From Motilibacter aurantiacus (lineage in GTDB: Bacteria > Actinomycetota > Actinomycetes > Motilibacterales > Motilibacteraceae): 35,557 nt of DNA. Location of the stretch: the NCBI RefSeq assembly GCF_011250645.1, contig NZ_JAANNO010000010.1, positions 94,378 through 129,934 of the forward strand, read 5' to 3'. The notes beneath the pieces are model-generated. The model was not told where the DNA came from. It made no database searches and was given only the letters and a program-made list of their open reading frames with translations. Position numbers and translations under genes: made by a program. Below, piece after piece: positions 12,060 to 14,792 of this stretch. Numbering within the stretch: the first letter of the stretch is position 1; each line of letters opens with the position of its first letter.

Positions 12060-12359
12060 TCAGGCGACGGCGACGTCCACCCGGGTGACCTCGCCGACCG
12101 TGGCCCGCACCGCGCGGTCCGTCGGCTGGGCGCCCGGAGCGAGGACGCGTACGGTCCACTCCCCCGACGCGGCGAAGAAGCGGTACTGCCCGGTGGCCGA
12201 GGTCGGGACCTCGGCGACGAACTCGCCGGACGCGTCGAGCAGCCGGACGTAGGCGCCCGCGAGCGGCGCGTCGTCGCGCGAGACGACGCCCGCGACGACG
12301 GCCTGACGGGAGAGGTCGACCCCGGAGAGGTCGAGGTCCTGAGGAGGTGCTCCGCACAT
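12060..12359 (-). CDS. sseC: SseC-type DUF1416 protein
   Basis: A 99-residue protein starting MCGAPPQDLDLSGVDLSRQA, with carboxypeptidase-regulatory-like strands AGVVSRDDAPLAGAYVRLLD and EFVAEVPTSATGQYRFFAAS. DUF1416 proteins (SseC in mycobacteria) are encoded immediately after CysA/SseA-type thiosulfate sulfurtransferases. Their exact role is unknown, thought to be in sulfur transfer. The start is 5 nt after the sseA stop with no good ribosome site, so translation is probably coupled. Confidence 0.88.
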   Translation of the reverse strand: MCGAPPQDLDLSGVDLSRQAVVAGVVSRDDAPLAGAYVRLLDASGEFVAEVPTSATGQYRFFAASGEWTVRVLAPGAQPTDRAVRATVGEVTRVDVAVA

Positions 12360-12364
12360 GGTCG

Positions 12365-13207
12365 TCAGCTGCCCGATCCGGTCTCGACCGGAACGCCGAC
12401 CAGCGAGCCGTACTCGGTCCACGACCCGTCGTAGTTCTTGACGTTCGGCTGGCCGAGCAGCTCGTGCAGCACGAACCACGTGTGCGCCGAGCGCTCGCCG
12501 ATGCGGCAGTACGCGATCGTGTCCTTGCTGGCGAGGTCGACCCCGGCCTGGACGTACAGCTCGGCGAGCTCGGCCTCGTCCTTGAACGTGCCGTCGTCGT
12601 TGGCGGTCTTCGACCACGGGATGTTCTTCGCGGTCGGGACGTGCCCCGCGACCATCGCGGACTCCTGCGGCAGGTGCGCCGGGGCGAAGAGCTTGCCGCT
12701 GAACTCGTCGGGGCTGCGCACGTCGACCAGGTTGAGGTTGCCGATGGCGGCGACGACCTCGTCGCGGAAGGCGCGGATCGAGTTGTCCGGCTCCTGCGCG
12801 GTGTAGCTGGTGGCGGGGCGCTCGACCACGTCGCTCACCAGCTCGCGGGCGTCGAGCTCCCACTTCTTGCGGCCGCCGTCCATGAGCCGGACGTCGCGGT
12901 GGCCGTAGAGCTTGAAGTACCAGTAGGCGTAGGCCGCGAACCAGTTGTTGTTGCCGCCGTAGAGGACGACCGTGTCGTCGTTGGCGATGCCCTTCTTCGA
13001 CAGCAGGGCCTCGAAGCCCTCCTTGTTGACGAAGTCGCGGCGGACCGGGTCCTGCAGGTCCTTGCGCCAGTCGATGCGGATGGCGCCCTTGATGTGGTTG
13101 CGGTCGTAGGCGGCGGTGTCCTCGTCGACCTCGACCAGCACGACCTTGGGGTCGTCCAGATGGGCCTCGACCCAGTCGGCGTCGACGAGCGCGGTCTCGC
13201 GGCTCAT
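12365..13207 (-). CDS. sseA: Thiosulfate sulfurtransferase (rhodanese)
   Basis: A 280-residue tandem rhodanese. The N-terminal inactive domain contains LVEVDEDTAAYDRNHIKGAI and TVVLYGGNNNWFAAYAYWYF. The C-terminal active domain contains LVDVRSPDEFSG and the active-site loop AYCRIGERSAHTWFVLHELL, with the catalytic Cys in CRIGERS. It moves sulfane sulfur from thiosulfate to an acceptor. A strong site (AAGGAAGAGGG) precedes the ATG. A Cys-containing leader peptide and a hairpin lie upstream (13321-13458), suggesting control by cysteine supply. The downstream partner is SseC; the sulfur-carrier gene at 13593 is close but probably has its own promoter. Confidence 0.95.
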   Translation of the reverse strand: MSRETALVDADWVEAHLDDPKVVLVEVDEDTAAYDRNHIKGAIRIDWRKDLQDPVRRDFVNKEGFEALLSKKGIANDDTVVLYGGNNNWFAAYAYWYFKLYGHRDVRLMDGGRKKWELDARELVSDVVERPATSYTAQEPDNSIRAFRDEVVAAIGNLNLVDVRSPDEFSGKLFAPAHLPQESAMVAGHVPTAKNIPWSKTANDDGTFKDEAELAELYVQAGVDLASKDTIAYCRIGERSAHTWFVLHELLGQPNVKNYDGSWTEYGSLVGVPVETGSGS

Positions 13208-13320
13208 GGATTCCCTCTTCCTTCTAGTGTTCGCTCAGGGTTGCAGACGTCCCCGGGACGGGCCTTCGATGCGGCTGCGGCCCGACGGGGGCGGGGGCTC
13301 GGTGGAACTCTGCGGAGCGC

Positions 13321-13382
13321 CCCGTGCGGCGCGGGCGCGGGAAGGGGCCGATGCGGCACCGGCTTCCCGGGGGGCGCACGGG
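13321..13382 (-). promoter_or_regulatory. Nested hairpin between leader peptide and sseA, possible attenuator
   Basis: Three nested perfect stems: CCCGTGCG/CGCACGGG (13321-13328 with 13375-13382), CGGGAAG/CTTCCCG (13338-13344 with 13363-13369) and GCCG/CGGC (13347-13350 with 13354-13357). The structure starts 1 nt after the leader peptide stop on the minus strand, so ribosome position on the leader could affect folding. No alternative antiterminator pairing was worked out. Confidence 0.5.
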
Positions 13383-13383
13383 A

Positions 13384-13458
13384 TCAGGCGCGGCGACAGA
13401 GGCTCGCCGCGACCCGACAGAGGTCGACAGCGCGCCGGCGGATCAGCAGTCCTGCCAT
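13384..13458 (-). CDS. Cysteine-containing 24-residue leader peptide upstream of sseA
   Basis: Minus-strand ATG 13458 opens a 24-codon frame that reads MAGLLIRRRAVDLCRVA and ends ASLCRRA. The Arg-rich start followed by DLCRVAxxLCRR is the pattern of the small leader peptides that precede sulfur genes in streptomycetes and other actinobacteria; Cys-coding leaders act as cysteine-responsive attenuators in mycobacteria. TAGGAT lies exactly 7 nt before the ATG, so the message is probably leaderless, which is also typical. An in-frame ATG at 13467 would overlap the -10. It lies 176 nt upstream of sseA with a nested hairpin between. Confidence 0.82.
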   Translation of the reverse strand: MAGLLIRRRAVDLCRVAASLCRRA

Positions 13459-13465
13459 GGAGGGC

Positions 13466-13471
13466 ATCCTA
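13466..13471 (-). promoter_or_regulatory. -10 element of the leader peptide/sseA transcript
   Basis: TAGGAT on the minus strand (TANNNT), 7 nt before the leader peptide ATG, placing the transcription start on the start codon. No convincing -35 is present at 16-18 bp. Confidence 0.6.
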
Positions 13472-13592
13472 GGGGGACGTCAAGATCCGGGACGGGACGT
13501 CCGCGAGCTGAGACCCCGCCGGAACGTGTCGATCACCCGTCCGCGTCACCGACCGCATCCCTGCGGCACCACCAGCCGGCGTCGCAGCCCGC

Positions 13593-13847
13593 TCACCCGC
13601 CCGCGAACGGCGGCAGCACCTCCACGACCGCGCCCTCACCGAGCGAGCGCCCCGCGGCCGCCTCCCGCGCCACGCGCTCGCCGTCGACCAGGAGGCTCGC
13701 GGCCCCCAGCACGGCCCGCAGCCGCTCCCCGTGCGTCCGCGCCACCTGCGCGAGCGCGTCCGCGACCGTCGCCGCGTCCACGACGTCCTCGGCGCGGCCG
13801 GCGGCTGCCTTCGCGGCCGCCCAGTAGCGCACCGTCACCTGGGGCAC
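13593..13847 (-). CDS. MoaD/ThiS-family ubiquitin-like sulfur carrier
   Basis: An 84-residue protein beginning VPQVTVRYWAAAKAAAGRAE and ending VVEVLPPFAGG. The C-terminal Gly-Gly is the adenylated/thiocarboxylated end of MoaD/ThiS carriers, and PPFAGG is typical of MoaD. It supplies sulfur for molybdopterin or another pathway; the rhodanese next door is a plausible sulfur donor for its activating enzyme. AGGGAGGG lies 5 nt before the GTG 13847. Whether it serves molybdopterin or another product cannot be told because no other moa or thi gene is in the window. Confidence 0.88.
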   Translation of the reverse strand: MPQVTVRYWAAAKAAAGRAEDVVDAATVADALAQVARTHGERLRAVLGAASLLVDGERVAREAAAGRSLGEGAVVEVLPPFAGG

Positions 13848-14075
13848 AAGCCCTCCCTTCCGTCGGTGGCCGAGCGCCGCGGTGCGCCGGACCGGGGCAA
13901 ACCCGCCCTGAGCTGATCGAAAGTAAAGGGGCGATGACACGCGGATGACACAAGCACCCCCTATCCTTCGGTCCAGAAACGCGGGAGCCGCATGCTCCCA
14001 GCCCACAGTGCCGTGGGGCCGGACCGGACCGAGGGGCTCGGGGTGCCACGGCATCCCGCCCGCTGGAGGTGGGAC

Positions 14076-14792
14076 ATGGCGAGCGTCCTCCTGCTGACCA
14101 ACGCACTGCAGCCGTCGGCCGAGGTGCTTCCCGCCCTGGGGCTCCTCCTGCACTCGGTGCGCGTGGGCCCGGCCGAGGCGTCCGCCCTGCTCGACGCGCC
14201 GCCCAGCGACGTCCTGCTCCTCGACGGCCGCCGCGACCTGCCCCACGCCCGCGCCACCTGCCGGCTGCTGCGTACGACCGGGCTGAGCTGCCCGCTCATC
14301 CTCGTCGTCACCGAGGGCGGGCTGGCCGCGGTGACCGCCGAGTGGGGCGTGGACGACGTCGTGCTCGACACCGCCGGCCCGGCCGAGGTCGAGGCCCGGC
14401 TGCGGCTCGCCACCGGACGGCTGGCGATCGCGGCGTCCTCGGACCCGGACTCCCCCAGCGAGATCCGCAACGGCGACCTCTCCATCGACGAGGCGACCTA
14501 CGTGGCGAAGGTGCGCGGCCGCGTCCTCGACCTCACGTTCAAGGAGTTCGAGCTGCTGAAGTTCCTCGCCCAGCACCCGGGCCGGGTCTTCACCCGCGCC
14601 CAGCTGCTGCAGGAGGTGTGGGGCTACGACTACTTCGGCGGCACCCGCACGGTCGACGTGCACGTCCGGCGGCTGCGCGCCAAGCTCGGCGCCGACCACG
14701 AGGCCCTGATCGGCACGGTCCGCAACGTGGGCTACCGCTTCGTGGCGCCGGACAAGGGCGCGGACGAGCGCATCGCCGCGCCCACGGCCTGA
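14076..14792 (+). CDS. glnR: GlnR, OmpR-type global nitrogen regulator
   Basis: A 238-residue protein that closely follows actinobacterial Gln[21 protein letters not shown] at the N terminus, [20 protein letters not shown] in the receiver domain, [20 protein letters not shown], then the winged-helix output domain ([40 protein letters not shown]). GlnR is an orphan regulator that works as a dimer without phosphorylation and activates or represses glnA, amtB, nir and other nitrogen genes; it also cross-talks with PhoP. GGAGGTGG precedes ATG 14076; an in-frame upstream ATG at 13992 would add atypical residues. It converges on the nucleotidase gene. Confidence 0.96.

Follow-up and report, generated by a model that had tools for sequence, protein, structure and literature searches.

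A probable leaderless cysteine leader peptide gene before sseA in Motilibacter aurantiacus and the near-invariant UGU codon of its family

Does the 24-codon frame that precedes sseA in Motilibacter aurantiacus encode a leader peptide through which cysteine could set the expression of the gene, and which of its parts would do the sensing? The DNA analyzed (the window) is a stretch of 35,557 nucleotides, positions 94,378 to 129,934 of contig NZ_JAANNO010000010.1 (assembly GCF_011250645.1), and the features under study are listed in Table 1. The earlier note had proposed a cysteine-sensing attenuator made of a leaderless frame with two Cys codons and a nested hairpin. Its description of the minus strand was exact letter for letter as to TAGGAT, the spacer GCCCTCC (7 nt), the ATG at 13458-13456, and the 24-codon frame, which is closed by a TGA at 13386-13384. 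The hairpin that it placed 1 nt past the leader stop is present from 13382 onward and foldable, and the distance of 176 nt from the stop to the sseA ATG (13207) is also exact. The gene reached is a rhodanese of the sseA/cysA2 type that matched NF008557 (3-mercaptopyruvate sulfurtransferase) at E 4.1e-32, under the cut-off of that model, and the DUF1416 gene after it is probably in the same operon. A ThiS/MoaD-family sulfur carrier gene (13593-13847, minus strand) lies directly upstream of the leader promoter.

Table 1 Features of the sseA leader locus; D+n positions are counted in codons from the conserved Asp (D)
Feature	Position	Strand	Basis
-10 element TAGGAT of the putative leaderless promoter	13466..13471	-	Spacing kept among distinct leaders; no recognisable -35
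Leader sORF, 24 codons and stop, MAGLLIRRRAVDLCRVAASLCRRA	13384..13458	-	NF042934 above cut-off, NF042933 below; homologues
First Cys codon (codon 14, D+2), UGU in the window	13417..13419	-	Mostly UGC in the family, not invariably Cys
Last Cys codon (codon 21, D+9), UGU, proposed sensor codon	13396..13398	-	TGT lock in two samples
Nested hairpin, judged incidental	13321..13382	-	No U-run; near shuffles; not found in same-genus relative
C-rich, G-poor spacer from leader to sseA, candidate Rho-loading region	13208..13383	-	Base counts; family-wide skew
sseA/cysA2-type two-domain rhodanese, presumed target	12365..13207	-	PF00581, E 1.2e-32
DUF1416 gene, next after sseA	12060..12359	-	PF07210, E 9.2e-37

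The window peptide was matched by NF042934 (NCBIfam "putative leader peptide", cis_reg_atten, an entry that names a putative role only) at 29.5 and 30 bits using hmmscan and at 27.5 bits in a genome scan, above the cut-off of 27 each time; the match stops at the last Cys, and no difference from this family was seen. Against NF042933 (Ms5788A family Cys-rich leader peptide), E-values of 1.7e-8 to 2.5e-9 and 34-36.6 bits were obtained, short of the cut-off of 45. Because of both scores relative to their cut-offs, the window leader was assigned to the broad NF042934 family as a relative, not a formal member, of Ms5788A. With the Ms5788A family and the mycobacterial sORF upstream of cysA2 (Shell 2015; Canestrari 2020) it shares the core RRAVDLCRVA and the place before a cysA2/sseA rhodanese, and the spacing of its -10 element would fit their leaderless start, but it has two separate Cys codons where those polycysteine leaders have a terminal run of Cys codons. 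The copies from Mycobacteriaceae (L120, L121, L123, L124, L127, and L149), which are like MLTKRRAVDLCRVAGCCCCCCSC, carry the core RRAVDLCRVA followed by a Cys run and so tie the window peptide to the published polycysteine leader. The Cys-rich sORF before cysA2 has ribosome occupancy in M. smegmatis, according to Shell 2015 (PMC4633059). No match to the leader peptide was found in Pfam, and none up to E 1 with the Rfam covariance models over 13100-14100. Judged by its sequence, the window leader is a new member of an already described actinobacterial leader family thought to sense cysteine. The leader peptide, the link to cysteine, and the sulfur gene downstream, all put forward in the earlier note, thus gain the backing of described-family homology and a published mycobacterial precedent.

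Relatives were collected by an sseA search of genome contigs, from which the best 80 of 585 loci encoding a relative were taken, and a frame of the form RR/RL-x-V-D-L/F/Y was found upstream of the rhodanese in 80/80 of them. The first search pattern missed L040, L104, L111, and L131 and then 9 of 40 in the next batch, which were added by hand; duplicates (L002, L004) and chance-level matches (L009, L010) were removed, and the leader counts leave out L190-L212. The 185 leaders analyzed are 174 distinct ones over the compared stretch; they are related and hence not independent events, and a hand-typed table gives 28 family labels among 100 genomes. Using the 24-mer as the query, 33 of 60 relatives matched at E ≤ 0.01. 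At the same threshold NF042934 matched 151 of the 197 Actinomycetes genomes drawn, about three in four (127 above the cut-off), and 0 of 14 control genomes; at a loose E ≤ 10 a match was returned in 10 of the 14 controls, none above the cut-off. A phylum-wide draw gave 17 matches in 246 at E ≤ 0.001, 16 within the class and one weak match outside, and within the genomes drawn the leader family looks confined to the class Actinomycetes. The leader of a genome of the same genus (L091) is nearly letter-for-letter identical. In a genome of the same family (L093) the leader is followed by a carbonic anhydrase-like frame, identified by eye, with sseA about 600 nt off, and at several other loci, too, an additional frame separates the leader from sseA. 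A single Streptomyces genome can have as many as 15 NF042934 matches, suggesting a large network.

A search of the M. aurantiacus genome with the 24-mer returned the leader itself (E 8.3e-10) and a second copy at E 4.8e-4, and five leader-like frames besides that of the window were recorded. The frame C5 (E 8.0e-8) has as its nearest large called frame a prenyltransferase 841 nt away, with no clear target found among the frames called nearby; a cysteine dioxygenase-like frame, judged by eye, lies on the divergent strand. C3 (E 1.1e-4) precedes a symporter of the sodium:dicarboxylate family, and the three weak matches C1 (E 0.026), C8 (E 0.16), and C6 (E 2) precede an M14 peptidase, a GAF-ANTAR gene, and a nitrite/sulphite reductase, respectively. 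The last Cys codon is UGU in all six frames, that of the window counted. Twenty frames downstream of leaders, picked by a crude coding score and hand-selected, were compared with Pfam; nitrite/sulphite reductase, PALP enzymes, cysteine dioxygenase, rhodanese, DUF4395, luciferase-like monooxygenases, FMN reductase, sulfatase, and symporters were among the matches. The genes are largely sulfur-related, and some have no plain sulfur role (for example, the M14 peptidase and the GAF-ANTAR gene).

A TANNNT element ends 6-8 nt ahead of an in-frame ATG or GTG in 137 of the 174 distinct leaders (106 at exactly 7 nt); 22 shifted controls gave 0-14 of 174 (mean, 4.2). The same spacing is present in 77 of the 80 sseA loci (best 80 of 585). 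It is not shown by the other five frames of the M. aurantiacus genome. A scan of 13100-13700 gave no sigma-70 -35/-10 pair, so it is the conserved -10 spacing that points to a putative promoter here. This spacing and the homology to the described family agree with the leaderless start that had been claimed for the window.

The peptide itself appears to be under constraint. Arg at D-4 is encoded by five codons, Val at D-1 by GTC (79), GTG (42), GTA (18), and GTT (17), and Asp by GAC (137) and GAT (37), a variation which indicates that the residues are kept as amino acids. The full invariance of Arg and Asp is partly a product of selection because the search patterns required both, and Val at D-1, Arg at D+3 (166/174), and Val at D+4 (139/174 distinct leaders) are the better evidence for conservation of the peptide. 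Since RRxVDLxRV is kept at the amino acid level, the nascent peptide may matter: in the exit tunnel it could stall the ribosome, or prime it to stall, at the last Cys, and sensing would then not be by Cys-tRNA supply alone. Such an arrest is a possibility of lesser weight than the cysteine leader itself and is on balance doubtful. Residues far from the Cys codons are kept while their codons vary, which would be unusual for a plain tRNA-supply attenuator that needs Cys codons alone, but part of the apparent invariance was selected by the patterns and the Cys run of the mycobacterial members fits tRNA supply. That the product is a small protein acting in trans is highly improbable in spite of the conserved amino acids; many copies occur per genome, each before a different gene with its own promoter, and a protein product would not explain the fixed UGU codon described below.

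At D+9, the position of codon 21 in the window, TGT was found in 173 of the 174 distinct leaders. The exception (L055), the sole such case in the 80 sseA loci, has TGA where the last Cys codon would be, and its leader ends early for that reason. Cys is present at D+2 in 136 of the 174 distinct leaders (TGC, 128; TGT, 8), and the Cys codons at D+7 are TGC (40) and TGT (10). Both Cys codons noted earlier in the window are there, but they are not equal, only the second being common to nearly all family members. The search patterns demanded a Cys in the tail and never its third base, and for L150-L189 a Cys at D+9 earned a bonus. A second sample of 60 places, picked from listings before the codon was looked at, had TGT at D+9 in 57, and the other three had no Cys there (AGC, GGG, and TAG); 4 of the 57 share a core with the first set, and 198 distinct cores were covered in total. 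As background, the sseA genes of the 80 loci (best 80 of 585) and the window have 81 TGC and 0 TGT, TGT makes up 68 of 628 Cys codons (10.8%) in 325 flanking long frames, a count that overlapping loci enter more than once, and it makes up 4 of 69 in 22 long frames of the window.

Around UGU the bases of the second sample vary widely, and what is constrained therefore seems to be the codon itself. The idea of a longer RNA motif as the cause was put aside, as bases and codons vary on both sides. A C directly follows UGU in 151 of 173 leaders; at the D+2 Cys, used as the control, 146 leaders gave TGC then C in 132, TGT then C in 9, and TGC then A in 5. Among L011-L090, a helix between leader codons 2-5 (GCGACAG or CGACAGAGC, in differing reading frames) and the last-Cys segment is possible in loci of the Streptomyces and Streptosporangiales type. 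The motif GACAG stands at pairing distance in 68 of 173 distinct TGT leaders vs 10 of 700 control windows, and the pair types are 60 C-G vs 2 compensatory G-C, with 4 G-A, 1 G-G, and 1 T-G. As a general explanation of the UGU lock this helix was rejected, since neither the window nor most other groups have it and the groups without it keep UGU all the same.

The hairpin after the leader stop has outer arms CCCGTGCG/CGCACGGG and inner arms CGGGAAG/CTTCCCG. Its minimum free energy is -35 kcal/mol (z -1.53), a value equaled or bettered by 9 of 200 shuffles, and over its full 176 nt the spacer has no folding advantage over shuffles (z +0.43). The spacer of the same-genus genome differs from that of the window (z +1.47 over the first 66 nt after the leader). 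A classical attenuator with this hairpin as its intrinsic terminator is highly improbable: a hairpin exists and folds somewhat better than shuffles, but no U-run or terminator-like site was found at 13100-13700, the hairpin was not found in the relative whose leader is kept, and T-rich windows occur in just 6 of 52 leader-sseA spacers. The hairpin is judged to be incidental in a G+C-rich region. What survives of the attenuator layout in the earlier note is the leader, the leaderless start, the cysteine link, and the sulfur gene, but not the hairpin as a working part, which lacks a U-run, barely exceeds shuffles, and is not found in the same-genus genome.

The spacer itself is C-rich and G-poor. 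In the window its first 156 nt have 73 C and 49 G, a skew, (C-G)/(C+G), of 0.197 that is under the family average. For the 52 loci tested (spacers of 80/100-300 nt only), the skew is 0.268, and 57 intergenic stretches from elsewhere in these loci give 0.030 (p 2e-17), the sseA loci in this comparison being related to each other. Over the first 60 nt past the leader stop it is 0.188 in 123 sseA-type leaders and 0.223 in 51 others vs about 0 upstream. This composition fits Rho-type attenuation; it is compatible with Rho loading and is not proof of it. The last Cys codon lies 3-4 codons before the stop in 146 of the 185 leaders, so that a ribosome halted at this codon would cover the stop together with the opening bases of the spacer, which favors Rho. 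For other terminator-less cys leaders, Rho has been suggested in Seliverstov 2005 (PMC1262725).

In the competing form of output, control acts on translation: a structure would otherwise mask the ribosome-binding site of sseA, and a ribosome pausing at the Cys codons would open it, as in M. smegmatis. The work of Canestrari in 2020 reportedly speaks for translational control there, through a structure that masks the downstream start site, and not for Rho. For the M. smegmatis polycysteine leaders this control is cited as published in Smith 2022 (PMC9094748), PMC13236596, and PMC9031893, and the mechanism is called translation attenuation in two of these (Nat Microbiol 2026, PMC13236596; PMC9031893); PMC11133741 is a further source. 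In a crude folding model, placing a ribosome at the last Cys lifts the unpaired fraction of the window Shine-Dalgarno zone from 0.56 to 0.65. Across 53 loci (those with TGT at D+9 and a spacer of at most 300 nt), however, the zone is equally open with real (0.451) or shuffled (0.456) leaders (p 0.84), and a ribosome at the first Cys, the last Cys, or the stop gives 0.456, 0.473, and 0.462 (last Cys vs full, p 0.08). When the last-Cys segment was examined for direct pairing to the Shine-Dalgarno region of sseA, the three best partners at each locus showed no consistency. Sequestration of the start site by the leader was rejected as having no consistent effect over the 53 loci, and this result is weak evidence because the model is crude. 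Taken on its own, translational control at sseA is an unlikely reading that still carries real weight, and the preference for Rho over start-site control stands at about an even chance.

The reading preferred here, and a likely one, is a leaderless cysteine-responsive leader peptide gene, the counterpart of the mycobacterial sORF before cysA2. The family match, the frame in 80/80 loci (best 80 of 585), the leaderless spacing, the sulfur targets, the spacer skew, and the few T-rich windows would all count for it. Against it count the published M. smegmatis work, which by analogy favors translational control and not Rho, the little effect that a stalled ribosome is modeled to have on the start site in the 53 loci, and the members that precede genes without a plain sulfur role. 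The inferred course of events is that transcription would begin at or beside the ATG at 13458 and ribosomes would translate the 24 leader codons. When cysteine or Cys-tRNA is short, the ribosome would pause on the last Cys codon, the UGU at 13398-13396 that lies four codons ahead of the stop, and sseA and the following gene would be expressed more; when cysteine is ample, it would finish and leave, the C-rich spacer would be exposed, and expression would be cut, most likely by Rho. The tnaC leader of Escherichia coli senses tryptophan via an arrest peptide, and a ribosome that stays close to its stop codon blocks access of Rho. The window leader would work alike, with a ribosome near the stop set against Rho, but has no homology to tnaC. 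According to Seliverstov 2005 (PMC1262725), the Cys leader peptides of Mycobacterium, P. acnes, and B. longum are alike in having a short frame, Cys codons near the stop, and no terminator, but theirs are Cys runs before cys operons and cbs, and the window has another gene. The uORFC-8-2 element before cysS in Rhodobacterales (PMC8632094) also has Cys codons in a uORF and presumed Cys-tRNA sensing, but it has an intrinsic terminator, tandem Cys codons that are mostly UGC, and an unrelated sequence from another phylum.

UGU and UGC are normally read by one tRNA. Put forward tentatively, and at rather less than even confidence, is a codon-locked sensor in which the shared Cys must be UGU and never UGC, the tunnel peptide RRxVDLxRV helps to set the pause, and Rho is gated at the C-rich spacer by release or by a pause close to the stop. 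UGU would have been chosen as the slower codon by wobble when Cys-tRNA is scarce, and the peptide would be a built-in brake. The choice of regulatory codons is treated in Elf and Ehrenberg 2005 (PMC1183508). No report of the UGU lock was found in a full-text literature search, the key paper, Canestrari 2020, being beyond its reach, and it may be in print.

The gain for the window alone is a single regulatory leader to annotate. The finding on the family reaches further: it is rare for one position to show so clean and strict a constraint on the choice among synonymous codons. If the codon-locked reading is true, a cysteine attenuator with a codon-specific, nascent-chain-assisted switch would exist across Actinomycetes. 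If a change of UGU to UGC abolishes the response, codon identity, and not only the amino acid or the tRNA, would tune the attenuator, and a sulfur-control network that is easy to search for would be marked out in some three of every four Actinomycetes genomes drawn (151/197).
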